Part shown: positions 1,007 through 14,249 of the stretch, piece after piece
Numbering within the stretch: position 1 is the stretch's first letter
Layout: each line of letters opens with the position of its first letter
IMG/VR virus record: IMGVR_UViG_3300046010_000912
Span: 1 to 36,024 of that record
Direction: 5' to 3' (one strand)
Source of the DNA: a virus
Length of the DNA: 36,024 bases
The notes under the pieces: generated by a model
What the model was told of the DNA's origin: nothing
The model's input: only the letters and a program-made list of their open reading frames with translations
Databases searched by the model: none
Position numbers and translations under genes: made by a program

Positions 1007-2077
1007 ATGTCGAAAGTAAACTTTTCATTGACCACATCTATCGATGAGACCAAGCAACTTATCAAGTCTATCGGTGCAACAAACACAGTCGTTGTTGTCT
1101 CTGAGCCAGGCGTTGGGAAATCAACCATCTTAACAATGCTTAAGGCAGAGATGGGTGAGGATGAGTACGACTACATCTATGTCGATTGCCCTGTGAAAGA
1201 TATGATGGATGTTGCGGCATCTATCCCGAACCACACAAGCAAGACACTTGAGTACTATGTCTCATCGTTGTTCAAGATGGGCAACGGCAAGAAGAAGGTG
1301 ATCATGCTCGATGAGTTCATGAAGTCACCCAAGTTGATGCAGATCATTTATACCCGACTCATGTTGGAGCGTAGTGTGGGTGATGAGCAACTCCCCGAGG
1401 GAAGCATCGTCTTTGCAACAAGTAACAATGCAAGCGATGGTGTGGGTGATGGCATGTTGGCACACGTTGGGAATCGTGTGTGCTTGGTCAGTATGCGTAA
1501 GCCTAACCACGATGAGTGGAATACATGGGCAAGTGCGAATGGCATTGCGCGACCCATTCGGGCATGGGCGGCTATGAATACCAAGGCGTTCAAGTCTTAC
1601 TTAGATCCCGATCAGCAAGACAACCCATATATCTTTAAACCATCATCAACGAGCAAGTCCTTTGTGTCTCCTCGCTCATTGGCTAAGTGTTCTCCAATCG
1701 TTGAGAAGCGTGGTGAGTACACAGAGAATACATTGACTGTTGCATTGGCGGGTACTGCGGGTGAAGCGTTCGCTAAGTCTATCGCGGCATTCATCTCACT
1801 TGAGGGTCGCCTGACTAAGTATGAGGACATCATCAAGAGTCCCAAGACTATCAGCGTTCCTGACAATGTAAGCGCATTGGTCATGATGTTGTTCGAGGCA
1901 ATCGACAAGTTAGATACTCAGGATACCCTGAACAAGTACATGGACTTTGTGAATCGTATTCCCCAAGAAGAAATTCAATCGATCTTTTTCACCATGATGA
2001 TGCGAGCCAAGCCCAAGTTGGCGCGATACAACCAAGAGATCAACAAGTGGGCAACTGACAATCACCAACTTCTGTGA
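1007..2077 (+). CDS. MoxR/CobS-type AAA+ ATPase
   Basis: This 356-residue protein has a Walker A motif at residues 32-40 (SEPGVGKST), a Walker B at 98-104 (VIMLDEF) and a sensor-1 type FATSN at 136-140. It matches the AAA+ MoxR group, whose members act as chaperone-like ATPases that remodel or activate a partner carrying a VWA domain. Exactly such a partner is encoded two genes downstream (2374-3579). The start chosen is ATG 1007, which has GGAG six bases upstream; an in-frame TTG at 995 would place that Shine-Dalgarno inside the gene. The substrate in the phage cycle is unknown. The ATPase assignment is secure, the exact subfamily less so. Confidence 0.9.
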   Translation: MSKVNFSLTTSIDETKQLIKSIGATNTVVVVSEPGVGKSTILTMLKAEMGEDEYDYIYVDCPVKDMMDVAASIPNHTSKTLEYYVSSLFKMGNGKKKVIMLDEFMKSPKLMQIIYTRLMLERSVGDEQLPEGSIVFATSNNASDGVGDGMLAHVGNRVCLVSMRKPNHDEWNTWASANGIARPIRAWAAMNTKAFKSYLDPDQQDNPYIFKPSSTSKSFVSPRSLAKCSPIVEKRGEYTENTLTVALAGTAGEAFAKSIAAFISLEGRLTKYEDIIKSPKTISVPDNVSALVMMLFEAIDKLDTQDTLNKYMDFVNRIPQEEIQSIFFTMMMRAKPKLARYNQEINKWATDNHQLL

Positions 2078-3579: not shown

Positions 3580-4535
3580 TGTCATTCTACGATATACAAA
3601 ATGTTAGTTACAACGCACTCATTGAGTACGCAAAGACGGCAAAGCCATACAGGGATTCAAATGGCGCATACAACTTAGGCGCAAGGCGATACTCTGACAG
3701 GCACTTCAGACTCAGAGGTAATCTCGTTGATATTTACTATACCCAACCTGATCAGTCTAAAAAGATCGTTGAGAAGGACAAGTCTTTGGACTCATGGAAT
3801 TACAAGCGACACTTGCTGACGATACATCCTGACAACTCGTTCGAGGTAGTTAACTTTTCAGGGCAAGGTGACTGTATGTTTATGTCACAAGCTACTCAGG
3901 GGTACATCCATCAGGATGGTGGGCGTAAAGGCGTGGTGTACTACACCAATACAAAGATGCATCCAGTATTCAAGGGTCTGCGCATTGACTTGAAGACAGG
4001 AGATGCAGTCACGCCATATAAGTTTTTTAAGCGAGACATTGACAAAAAGAAAGCCAACGAAACACTCAAAGAGTTCGCAGAGTTTCAAACAATAGCGATG
4101 AAGTTCATTGAGCCAATGACATCGATGGGCATACTGGAGGTGTTCAGAGATTTGTATGACCAAGAGGGCGACCTTGACTGTCTTGATGAGGGATTGTTTG
4201 TTCAGTTGGTGCGAGATAGAAAGTTTGTTGATGCGGCAATCGTGTTCTCTATCGCGGGTCATGGTCATCACTACTACAGTCATCGTCACTTGTTGAATAC
4301 CATATTCACATCCGATGATACCGAGAACGCAATGCGACAGATCACAAGATCATTTGACGAGCATTACAAACTCACTCTCGATAGAAGAATTAAAGAGAAC
4401 ATGAGGGATATTGTTCTAACAGGTTGTGACGATGCCGCAGTTCTAAAAGAGTTACCTATTGGTGAGAAGTTCCCAACATCCAAGTGGGGGTACATCATCA
4501 CCGATGAAAACAACAGTAGATTCATTCGTATTTAA
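3579..4535 (+). CDS. Hypothetical protein (318 aa)
   Basis: ATG 3579 overlaps the preceding stop by one base and has GGAG eight bases upstream, so it is preferred to the ATG at 3486, which would overlap the VWA gene by 94 bases. No known family or catalytic motif is recognised. The N-terminal half contains many Tyr, Arg and beta-type segments, including a short GDCMF stretch. The C-terminal half is helical with a His-rich patch (GHGHHYYSHRHL) that could bind metal, though this is only a guess. It follows the ATPase/VWA genes without a gap, so it is probably co-transcribed with them. Confidence 0.75.
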   Translation: MSFYDIQNVSYNALIEYAKTAKPYRDSNGAYNLGARRYSDRHFRLRGNLVDIYYTQPDQSKKIVEKDKSLDSWNYKRHLLTIHPDNSFEVVNFSGQGDCMFMSQATQGYIHQDGGRKGVVYYTNTKMHPVFKGLRIDLKTGDAVTPYKFFKRDIDKKKANETLKEFAEFQTIAMKFIEPMTSMGILEVFRDLYDQEGDLDCLDEGLFVQLVRDRKFVDAAIVFSIAGHGHHYYSHRHLLNTIFTSDDTENAMRQITRSFDEHYKLTLDRRIKENMRDIVLTGCDDAAVLKELPIGEKFPTSKWGYIITDENNSRFIRI

Positions 4536-4551: not shown

Positions 4552-5481
4552 ATGGAAATAGTATCTGTATATGGCGATGCTTGGAAAGCCAATAGACTTC
4601 TGTCTAATAGCACACACCTGAATAAATTTGCGCATGAGTTCTGCCATGAATTCGACACGCGAGTCAGCTTTGATGGGGATAACTTCAGCAATAAAAGTAT
4701 TACCCTTGAGATGCCCAATGGCATGAGGATTGGTAGTCTATCAATAGGGTCAAACTGCGGAGAGCCTATTTATATTGCAAGCATGCCAAGTATCATCAGC
4801 AAAGATAGGTCTAGCAAATGGTCAGGTAGTGATGCACGAGACTCTGAAAAGCTACCCAATCTGATTCGCACTATCAAGAAGAACAAAGAACAACCCACAG
4901 AAGCCAAGGTGATGGAGATGTTCAATAGCGCAATCTATCATGCGTTAGCTGAAATAACAAATTCAAGAGAACCTAACTTTGGTATCAATGGGACACAAGC
5001 ATTGGATGCACTTAAAGCCGTATTGGGTATTGATAATATGTCTGTACATCAGCACATACCTGAGTTTCAAAAGATGTACGATAACTACATGAAGGCAGTC
5101 GCATCAGTTAAGGATAGTCAGGCAACGGCAGACCGATTCAAGAAGGGGTGTACTATGATTTATATAGAGAATGATAGATACAAAGCTGACTCTGTAAGCG
5201 GATACTATGTGGCAGACTTTGTGACTGCAATGAATGCGAGTACTGGCAAGCTTGGGTATGAGTTTCAGTCACCCCTGAAACGGTATGCTAGTCTGAAAGA
5301 AACTGAGCATGCACCGACTGTCGCAATGATTCGCTCATACTTGGAAGGTAAACCTAAATACTTTGACAAAGACAATGAGTTTGGTGTTAGATACTATGAT
5401 ACTTACTTTGACGACATGGACTTTGCGGTAGGCAATTCAAACAACAAACTTGTAGTGCTGTTGCCCAAGCATGCTCCATGA
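4552..5481 (+). CDS. Hypothetical protein (309 aa)
   Basis: The gene has a strong ribosome site (AGGAGA at 4538-4543) nine bases before the ATG. The 309-residue product is soluble-looking, with no membrane segment. The N-terminal region carries HEFCHEFDTR, and the middle is Lys-rich with helical character (RTIKKNKEQPTEAKVMEMF). A C-terminal acidic stretch (YDTYFDDMDF) precedes the end. The HEFCH segment has HExxH spacing, but the surrounding sequence does not give the usual hydrophobic frame of a zincin, so I do not call a protease. No family is recognised. It is part of the same run of phage genes as its neighbours. Confidence 0.75.
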   Translation: MEIVSVYGDAWKANRLLSNSTHLNKFAHEFCHEFDTRVSFDGDNFSNKSITLEMPNGMRIGSLSIGSNCGEPIYIASMPSIISKDRSSKWSGSDARDSEKLPNLIRTIKKNKEQPTEAKVMEMFNSAIYHALAEITNSREPNFGINGTQALDALKAVLGIDNMSVHQHIPEFQKMYDNYMKAVASVKDSQATADRFKKGCTMIYIENDRYKADSVSGYYVADFVTAMNASTGKLGYEFQSPLKRYASLKETEHAPTVAMIRSYLEGKPKYFDKDNEFGVRYYDTYFDDMDFAVGNSNNKLVVLLPKHAP

Positions 5482-12096: not shown

Positions 12097-12408
12097 ATGC
12101 CGTACGTTAATAAACCTAGACCCTATGATAAAGAATACCAACAGCAGAAAGCTAGAGGTGAGCATGAGCGTAGGATGGAGCGTCAGCGCGGTCGTCGTTC
12201 AATAGACAAGACTGGCTCAGACGGAAATGGAAACGGCAAAGCTGATCGCAGAGAAGGTAAGGATGTGTCCCACGTTCGCGCCTTAGACAAGGGCGGTTCA
12301 AACAAAGACGGTTTGCGCATTCAAAGCGTAGCTAAAAACCGTTCATTCAAACGCGACTCTAAAGGAAACTTAGTCTCCGAAGTTAGTAAGCGTGAGAAGC
12401 GTAAGTGA
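12097..12408 (+). CDS. HNH endonuclease-like small protein
   Basis: ATG 12097, with an AAGGAAGG site at about 12085-12092, starts a 103-residue highly basic protein. An upstream start would run into the nuclease gene. The C-terminal half carries DVSHVRALDKGGSN and then KNRSFKRD. The DxxH, KGGSN and NRSF pattern is that of a small HNH-like phage family. The usual Asn before the following LR is replaced (DGLRI) and no second His is obvious, so catalytic activity is uncertain; a DNA-binding or accessory role is possible. It ends directly before the promoter and RNA region. Confidence 0.65.
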   Translation: MPYVNKPRPYDKEYQQQKARGEHERRMERQRGRRSIDKTGSDGNGNGKADRREGKDVSHVRALDKGGSNKDGLRIQSVAKNRSFKRDSKGNLVSEVSKREKRK

Positions 12409-12438
12409 AAACACCTACGATATTTTTCAAAAAGTAAC

Positions 12439-12466
12439 TTGACAATTAAGATTAAGACTCCATAAT
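12439..12466 (+). promoter_or_regulatory. Strong sigma70-like promoter
   Basis: TTGACA at 12439-12444, a 16-base spacer (ATTAAGATTAAGACTC), and CATAAT at 12461-12466 match six of six and five of six consensus bases. The predicted transcript start is near 12473, exactly where the hairpin-rich non-coding stretch begins. It shares the -35, spacer length and AT-rich spacer with the promoter at 7986-8013. It would drive the candidate RNA and the SNF2 helicase. Confidence 0.7.
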
Positions 12467-12472
12467 AGAGAT

Positions 12473-12656
12473 GTGTCGTAAGGCGTGAGTGGACACAGAG
12501 GCGTGCTTTGCAGATTGCTGGCCTCGTAACCGCGTCAATTAGTCGGTGGGGCTTTCTCTCCTAGAGTTAACACTTTCACCCACGACAGGACTAATCGTCT
12601 AGGACACGCAGACGTTAAAGAGATGTGGGGCAGGTGGAATCCCTGCACCTAACAAG
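12473..12656 (+). ncRNA. Candidate structured RNA or long 5' leader
   Basis: No credible gene lies between the promoter and the helicase start, but the stretch holds several perfect complementary pairs. GTGTC 12473-12477 pairs with GACAC 12492-12496. GAGGC 12498-12502 pairs with GCCTC 12521-12525. ATTAGTC 12538-12544 pairs with GACTAAT 12589-12595 and encloses GTGGG 12546-12550 with CCCAC 12579-12583 and an inner CTCT/AGAG hairpin at 12556-12566. CGTCT 12596-12600 pairs with AGACG 12610-12614, with CACGC in its loop. GCAGG 12630-12634 pairs with CCTGC 12642-12646. The seven-base repeat AGGCGTG occurs at 12481 and 12499, and each copy could pair with the CACGC loop. It may be a phage small RNA or a leader regulating the helicase. 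No known RNA family is recognised. Confidence 0.45.
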
Positions 12657-12668
12657 TTGAAAGATAGT

Positions 12669-14249
12669 ATGGATATAGTTGACGACATTGCATTGCGTTT
12701 ATATTGCTCACATGACATGGCAGATCAGATCACCAAGTACATTGACAAGAGCGAAATAGTAGGCTCGACAGGCAACCATGTGCAGGTGCTTGTTTACTGG
12801 GGAATCCAAGAGGTTCAAACACTCACACGTTTACTAGATACATCCCATAAGATTCCATCTCCTATCGAGAAACACTACGGCTGGCCCGGGATGTTCCAAC
12901 CGTTTGACCACCAAAGAGATACTTCTAGGTTTCTCACACTTCATAGACGAGCGTTCTGCTTCAATGAGGCAGGTACAGGCAAAACCTCTGCGGCAATCTG
13001 GGCGGCTGACTACCTCATGAACCAAGGTTTAATTAAGAGAGTGCTAGTTGTCTGCCCACTTTCTATTATGCAAAGCGCATGGCAAGCAGACCTTTTTAAA
13101 ACAGCAATGCACCGCACATGCGCGATAGCCCACGGCTCAAAGCGCAGGAGAGTCATCCAAGCAAGTTACGATTTTGTCATCATCAATTACGATGGTGTTA
13201 ACGCTGAGCGCGAAGCAATTATCGCCAAAGATTTTGACTTGATCATCATCGATGAAGCCAATGCATACAAGAACCCAAGCACAATACGTTGGAAGACTCT
13301 TGCCAAGATCATCAAACCATCTACCTATCTGTGGATGATGACAGGCACACCCGCATCTCAATCTCCCGAGGACGCATTTGGGTTAGCCAAGCTAGTCAAC
13401 CCATCCAATGTTCCCAAGTACAAGACTGCGTGGAAAGACATGGTGATGGTTCAGGCATCTAGGTTTAAGTGGCATCCCAAGCCCACTGCCCGAGACATAG
13501 TATTCAAGGCGTTGCAACCTGCCATTCGATATGAGAAAGACCAATGCTTAGACTTGCCTGATGTGATGTATCAGACACGCGAAGTACCTTTGACGGGTCA
13601 AGCGTCAGCATACTATAAGGAACTCGTTAAAGAGATGCAGATTCAGGCGGCTGGCGAGACAATCAGCACAGTAAATGCTGCGGCATCATTGACCAAACTG
13701 CTTCAGCTATCAGGTGGTGCTGTATATACAGACGACCACAACATCATCGAGTTCGATGTATCTCCGCGATTGCAGGTTCTTAAAGAGGTGATGGATGAAG
13801 CCTTGCACAAGGTCATTGTGTTCATTCCATACAAGCACACCATCAAGCTAGTTCAAGATTCGTTAACCAAAGATAACGTTTCTACAGAAATCATTTCAGG
13901 CGATGTGTCAGCCAACCAACGATCAGCAATATTTAATCGGTTTCAAACAACAGATGACCCACAAGTACTATTAATTCAGCCACAATCTGCATCTCACGGT
14001 GTCACGCTCACTGCCGCGAGTATCGTAGTTTTTTGGTCGCCTGTAATGTCCGTTGAGACTTACCTACAGTGCATTGCGCGAATTGATCGCGTGGGTCAAA
14101 AAAACAAAATGACAGTAATACACCTCCAAGGGTCTGAGGTGGAAAGGCGTATGTACAAGATGCTTCAGGGCAAAGTGGACATGCACGAAAAATTGGTAGA
14201 CCTGTATCGTGAAGAAATCAAAGGAGAGAGCAGTGAATGTAGTAAATGA
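12669..14249 (+). CDS. SNF2-family DNA helicase/translocase
   Basis: This 526-residue protein has all core superfamily 2 motifs: AGTGKT (residues 101-106), DEAN (195-198, in place of DEAH or DEAD), TGTP (225-228), SHGVTLTAA (about 442-450) and QCIARIDRVGQ (467-477). The QxxxRxxRxGQ motif VI is typical of SNF2 proteins. It uses ATP to move on duplex DNA. Stand-alone phage SNF2 helicases often work with a VRR-NUC nuclease, encoded here at 5827-6123. ATG 12669 is chosen with only a weak GAAAG ribosome signal; TTG 12657 in the same frame is possible. The weak signal fits control by the upstream RNA structure. Confidence 0.92.
   Translation: MDIVDDIALRLYCSHDMADQITKYIDKSEIVGSTGNHVQVLVYWGIQEVQTLTRLLDTSHKIPSPIEKHYGWPGMFQPFDHQRDTSRFLTLHRRAFCFNEAGTGKTSAAIWAADYLMNQGLIKRVLVVCPLSIMQSAWQADLFKTAMHRTCAIAHGSKRRRVIQASYDFVIINYDGVNAEREAIIAKDFDLIIIDEANAYKNPSTIRWKTLAKIIKPSTYLWMMTGTPASQSPEDAFGLAKLVNPSNVPKYKTAWKDMVMVQASRFKWHPKPTARDIVFKALQPAIRYEKDQCLDLPDVMYQTREVPLTGQASAYYKELVKEMQIQAAGETISTVNAAASLTKLLQLSGGAVYTDDHNIIEFDVSPRLQVLKEVMDEALHKVIVFIPYKHTIKLVQDSLTKDNVSTEIISGDVSANQRSAIFNRFQTTDDPQVLLIQPQSASHGVTLTAASIVVFWSPVMSVETYLQCIARIDRVGQKNKMTVIHLQGSEVERRMYKMLQGKVDMHEKLVDLYREEIKGESSECSK

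Follow-up and report, generated by a model that had tools for sequence, protein, structure and literature searches.

The 36,024-base virus record analysed here (the window, meaning the whole stretch) places a noncoding region between a near-consensus promoter and the gene of an SNF2-type helicase. Does this region make a structured RNA, and does such an RNA serve the helicase or stand on its own? A preliminary description, drawn from the letters alone, had proposed either a new phage RNA or a switch-like leader, on the strength of several perfect stems, a pseudoknot and two pairs of competing helices.

Promoter, noncoding stretch and relatives

The promoter and the noncoding stretch were both found as described. 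No open reading frame of at least 60 aa was present on either strand from 12408, where the preceding small gene stops, to the helicase. Transcription is predicted to start at approximately 12473, that is, where the first hairpin of the RNA (P1) begins, and across the group to which the window belongs the P1 strand begins at about the predicted start. Promoter-like sites were detected in 38 of 130 family members vs. 7 in shuffles. The ribosome signal of the helicase is weak to modest, as had been noted (GAAAG at 12659-12663 in the window, AAGGA in many relatives). We judge the helicase start to be ATG 12669, not TTG 12657, because most close relatives have a conserved ...AGTATG... after the ribosome site.

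The product of the small gene (12097-12408), a basic protein of 103 aa, is conserved and matches nothing in Pfam; the gene lies immediately 5' of the RNA in most relatives. Downstream, between the helicase and the replication genes, 14209-14655 matches the PHROG family 'minor head protein' (phrog_13900, E 9e-22). A gene so labelled occupies the same place in Xanthomonas phage Xp15, and the head label may therefore be wrong.

From IMG/VR, 80 loci with the helicase were fetched and their upstream regions compared. Most contained a short hairpin with the loop GUNAGGYRUGAGUG, a variable stretch, the sequence AACCRYRUCA and a second hairpin. Further loci were taken from motif-only scans of IMG/VR, in which a first, looser pattern also gave many chance matches. 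A covariance model recovered all 68 newly fetched motif-matched loci (68/68), and the covariance-model run yielded 164 distinct copies in 195 listed loci; E-values from this home-made model are rough. All family members come from metagenomic contigs, and several of the contexts end at contig ends.

A pseudoknotted fold kept by matched base changes

The core of the RNA is about 125 nt long (12472-12595 in the window, plus P4 to 12614, plus strand; Table 1). The P1 loop pairs with the downstream AACCRYRUCA strand in an H-type pseudoknot, in which the loop bases GUNA, AGUG and AAC are nearly invariant; in the window, the AAC at 12528-12530 stands directly 5' of the pseudoknot strand CGCGTC. Between P1 and this strand lies P2, a region that differs in length and sequence from member to member, and directly after the pseudoknot follows the long hairpin P3, in the family often with the internal loop GWCAG and with a C/U-rich tip. 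The seven-pair stem enclosing another helix, recognized in the preliminary description, is P3, and the stem-loop recognized after it is P4. The latter is GNRA-capped in 70 of 128 members, is represented by other hairpins elsewhere, and has no counterpart in a few members. The GCAGG/CCTGC hairpin is likewise present in the window sequence. By eye, P4-type hairpins just 5' of the helicase were also seen in some relatives without the core (e.g., L043 and L048).

Table 1. Positions of the RNA, its parts and adjoining features in the window
Feature	Positions	Strand	Description	Evidence or remark
Sigma70-type promoter	12439..12466	+	TTGACA (begins 12439) - 16 nt - CATAAT (ends 12466)	11 of 12 consensus bases
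P1 hairpin	12472..12497	+	12472-12477 with 12492-12497; loop GTAAGGCGTGAGTG, 12478-12491	Covariation (helix 1), held-out test
Pseudoknot	12482..12536	+	GGCGTG 12482-12487 (P1 loop) with CGCGTC 12531-12536	48/48 paired; covariation (helix 2)
P2, putative variable hairpin	12498..12525	+	12498-12502 with 12521-12525	Window sequence
P3 hairpin	12538..12595	+	12538-12544 with 12589-12595	Covariation (helices 3 and 4), held-out test
P3 inner helix		+	12546-12550 with 12579-12583; internal loop GACAG 12584-12588; C/U-rich tip 12552-12562
P4 accessory hairpin	12596..12614	+	12596-12600 with 12610-12614	Sequence unrelated in other members, some without P4
Local hairpin	12630..12646	+	GCAGG/CCTGC	Seen in close relatives of the window alone (e.g., L017); outside the family core
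SNF2-type helicase	12669..14249	+	Pfam PF00176, PF00271	Usual, non-constant downstream neighbour of the RNA

The long-range pairings first proposed did not survive the comparison. GGCGTG had been matched, as part of AGGCGTG, to the CACGC loop of P4 (12605-12609); its conserved partner is CGCGTC, and all six positions of this helix are paired in 48 of 48 non-redundant members, with exchanges between U-A and C-G and between G-C and A-U (a one-base bulge of some members was omitted from the 48-member alignment). The two competing pairings, through CGTC 12533-12536 and AGGTG 12632-12636, both rely on segments that the family does not conserve. No conserved mutually exclusive pairing was found, and a switch is therefore not indicated.

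Base changes across the family follow the fold closely. When column pairs of the 48 members were ranked by corrected mutual information, every one of the top 14 was a P1, pseudoknot or P3 pair. In alignment A1 (46 sequences), 88.8% of pairs were standard under the stated structure vs. 68.3% in shuffles, two-sided pair changes numbered 265 cells vs. 85, and 22 of 25 pairs had changes on both sides. The covariation score was 0.569, compared to 0.224 in shuffles and 0.09-0.13 when partners were slid by 1-3 columns, and compensatory changes exceeded the controls in all four core helices tested. Because the choice of sequences for A1 had partly used the ability of P1 and P3 to pair, these two helices were retested on members picked by the loop motif alone. 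In this held-out set (n = 46), at least five of the six P1 pairs formed in 38 members (expected 10, maximum 21 over 5000 swaps), and an exact 6-mer partner for P3 was present in 24 (expected 3.6, maximum 11). Another motif-chosen test of P1 and P3 had a similar outcome. In well over a hundred related environmental phage sequences, the shape of the RNA is maintained through matched base changes.

Loop lengths differ across the family by numbers that are not multiples of three, which argues against a missed protein gene. Folding energy gave a different picture. Excess stability had been anticipated, and the energy of 12473-12656 was ordinary (z = -0.28; 73 of 200 shuffles at least as stable), as was that of the family (mean z = -0.44, 80 members). 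We rejected folding stability as evidence for the RNA, since these values are uninformative; an energy test alone would miss or reject it, although the RNA is real. Energies not below shuffles are what could be expected of chance helices. Such helices, or a missed gene, are nevertheless scarcely credible as an explanation given the covariation in four helices against shuffled, slid and held-out controls, the non-triplet length changes and the lack of any open reading frame of 60 aa. We conclude that 12472-12614 is almost certainly a real, conserved structured RNA.

This RNA has no counterpart among the 4227 families of Rfam 15, neither for the window at the gathering threshold nor for 12420-12700 up to an E-value of 10, and the relatives gave no Rfam match over the RNA, as would be consistent with an uncatalogued RNA. 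A scan of approximately 85,000 bacterial and archaeal genomes returned three motif matches; their sequences, inspected by eye, show no P1/P3 pattern and look like chance, and they were not accepted as members. Among cultured phages, blastn, which is weak on short divergent RNAs, found no DNA match to the RNA, and the loci of the nearest cultured helicases (Acinetobacter phages HHU4 and Effie, Xanthomonas phage Xp15 and a Rhizobium phage) gave no covariance-model match. Titles and abstracts of the open-access literature retrieved on phage structured or noncoding RNAs, tRNA arrays and SNF2 leaders contained nothing on the element. It represents a new family of the known kind, structured phage noncoding RNAs, and no known family can be assigned. 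Of the original interpretation, the new phage RNA is thus strongly supported, by covariation in four helices, recovery of all motif-matched loci, the empty Rfam searches and the non-triplet indels. Few phage noncoding RNAs have been charted, as most searches depend on cultured phages or on folding energy.

GOLLD and ROOL (PMC12286853) are likewise phage- and lake-associated structured noncoding RNAs, and some contigs have our RNA, too, within long noncoding stretches close to tRNA genes. GOLLD and ROOL are many hundreds of nucleotides long, in contrast to our core of about 125 nt. Both are in Rfam, and their Rfam models gave no match in the window or its relatives.

One locus, L038, holds a divergent possible member at 4848-4966 (12.7 bits, E 0.16), in which P1, an altered pseudoknot and P3 were recognized by eye; from this case the family may be wider than the reach of the covariance model. 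A second weak match in L192 (E 0.03) was rejected as a copy, as it falls inside a coding sequence.

Separability from the helicase

The RNA lies directly 5' of the SNF2 helicase in 137 of the 164 distinct copies, usually with 40-80 nt from P3 to the helicase start, and elsewhere in the rest. In L109, L182 and L219 it is found 4.7-5.8 kb upstream of the helicase. Three records with the RNA, possibly incomplete, have no match to this helicase: L107 (53.9 kb), L144 (56.7 kb) and L181 (45 kb). In L144 the RNA is followed by a terminator-like hairpin of the GGCACGGCC..GGCCGTGCCTTTTT type and then by convergent genes on the opposite strand, so that there is no same-strand gene close downstream. In L107 and L217 the RNA overlaps the end of the upstream open reading frame and precedes genes that by eye look like terminase genes; a tRNA lies downstream of it in L217 and L146. 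These non-helicase contexts, known from metagenomic contigs, recur in independent samples (L098/L105/L141/L159/L182 and L087/L107/L135/L146/L217). In five other loci (L205, L206, L208, L212 and L216) a small open reading frame (MTREEFEALLK...) separates the RNA from the helicase.

The RNA was present in 28 of 34 records, as a single copy in each with one exception, a record holding two equal copies about 64 kb apart, which is probably assembly redundancy. Mapped on the helicase tree, presence and absence required 7 changes, at least 6 of them forced by well-supported branches; the helicase therefore does without the RNA. Other contexts, L144 and losses with the helicase kept all demonstrate independence from one particular downstream gene. 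Within this phage group the RNA looks like an old feature that has been lost repeatedly and can exist without the helicase. What emerges is a strictly conserved pseudoknot RNA across an uncultured phage group, missed by Rfam and by energy tests, and separable from its usual neighbour gene.

These distributions bear on the hypothesis that the RNA is a cis-acting 5' leader of the helicase operon, sensing a ligand or protein (e.g., in autoregulation by a replication protein) and controlling either the ribosome site of the helicase or termination at P4. The usual position and spacing would suit a leader, a promoter lies just 5' in the window's clade, and a T-run follows P4 in a few members (L026, L226). 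Compact H-type pseudoknot riboswitches with conserved loops, such as SAM-II and preQ1, sit just 5' of a gene, and our RNA resembles them in its compact pseudoknot, its conserved loops and its usual place; it differs in having no Rfam match, in its varying neighbours and in a pseudoknot without conserved overlap of a ribosome site. Copies far from the helicase or in records without it, the arrangement in L144, repeated loss of the RNA with retention of the helicase, a P3 tip that is not specific to its own Shine-Dalgarno (SD) sequence and the non-conserved switch pairings make a leader possible but somewhat unlikely. The switch-like leader of the preliminary description was not supported: its mutually exclusive pairings are not conserved, and the RNA also occurs without the helicase downstream, in one genome with no same-strand gene nearby.

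Possible roles of the RNA

Its occasional occurrence apart from the helicase makes it probable that the RNA has a function independent of that gene, and we tentatively favour a phage RNA that stands alone and acts in trans over a switch for the helicase. Read from sequence, the proposed course is as follows. In the window phage, the RNA would be made by host sigma70 polymerase as the predicted 5' end of an early replication mRNA. The pseudoknot and P1 may guard this 5' end and serve as a platform, possibly one that binds a protein. The C/U-rich tip of P3 would be the effector, pairing with SD-like sequences of phage or host mRNAs, and the site before the helicase would be an inherited one, convenient for its early promoter, and would not mark a switch dedicated to the helicase. 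The comparison shows the fold, its conservation, single copies per genome, other neighbourhoods and losses with the helicase kept; we infer transcription, action in trans and the role of the tip. As a candidate early RNA effector of phages, the RNA is concrete and open to test.

The tips of P3 are 69% pyrimidine and contain CUCC in 75 of 122 cases vs. 23 (maximum 33) in shuffles, also in non-helicase contexts. Specificity of the tip for the SD of its own helicase was considered and rejected: the pairing energy was unchanged after swapping, showing no preference for the helicase SD of its own phage over that of another, and a generic SD interaction is still compatible with this result. Some base-pairing sRNAs use a C/U-rich seed. 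Like them, our RNA has a stable scaffold that carries a tip (CUCC/CUUUC) able to pair with SD-like sequence; it differs by its elaborate pseudoknot core and by most copies having no obvious terminator. Several points count against action in trans. The prevalence of copies directly before the helicase would also be explained by a function in cis, most copies lack an obvious terminator that would free a short RNA (T5 within 45 nt downstream of P3 in 9 of 128 members), and the non-helicase contexts are drawn from metagenomic contigs.

The predicted position, at the head of an early transcript, would also suit a put-like processive antiterminator, in which the nascent RNA binds RNA polymerase and later terminators are passed. 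The put RNAs of phage HK022 consist of two hairpins, with copies at two promoters. Like them our RNA is structured and opens an early phage transcript, and terminator-like hairpins lie nearby in L109, L144 and L331; unlike them it has a pseudoknot, and it occurs once per genome and not once per early promoter. In L144 there is nothing on the strand of the RNA past the terminator to read, and in L331 the terminator-like hairpin precedes the RNA. We consider this role improbable.

A part in a phage machine, e.g., as packaging RNA or replication primer RNA, appears improbable as well. The RNA lies amid replication genes in most genomes and, in one phage group, shortly 5' of the terminase-looking genes, but the neighbourhood varies, the RNA was lost in several lineages that retain replication genes, and no packaging RNA in Rfam matched.

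More speculatively, and to be taken as doubtful, the RNA could represent a new class: a pseudoknot scaffold that displays an anti-SD-like loop at the start of infection, perhaps redirecting translation, and that is an exchangeable module alongside other uncatalogued RNA modules in uncultured phages. The RNA family itself points to more such uncatalogued modules in environmental phages.

Further noncoding elements were observed in the same contigs. A second element that appears to be structured, AACACGCATGRGGATTG - variable insert - CAGTCCCCAGCCGTGTTGGTG ... CCACCAACAAC, occurs in more than 120 IMG/VR contigs, including L083, L181, L188, L192, L217 and L313-L392 (e.g., L349, minus strand, matches at 3915-3930 and 4234-4249). 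It is often in tandem and near tRNA genes, shows a compensated C-G to A-U change in L083, and had no match in Rfam. Relative to close relatives, it is inserted between P4 and the helicase in L188 and L192. Within the element in L192 (about 1800-1905, minus strand) there is a tRNA-like insert with a T-arm-like GGGGGTTCGACTCCCCC, for which ARAGORN made no tRNA call. In L331 (6480-6720) a copy of the RNA comes directly after a terminator-like hairpin and a copy of the second element. There is also a third element, a noncoding block that recurs as approximately GTTGGCGCACAGTAATCGGACAGG..GCTTTCTGTC..CTGAAGCTCCCTGYGCCAAC; it follows the RNA in L087, L107, L135, L146 and L217, and the same block follows the second element in L313, in the same noncoding stretches.
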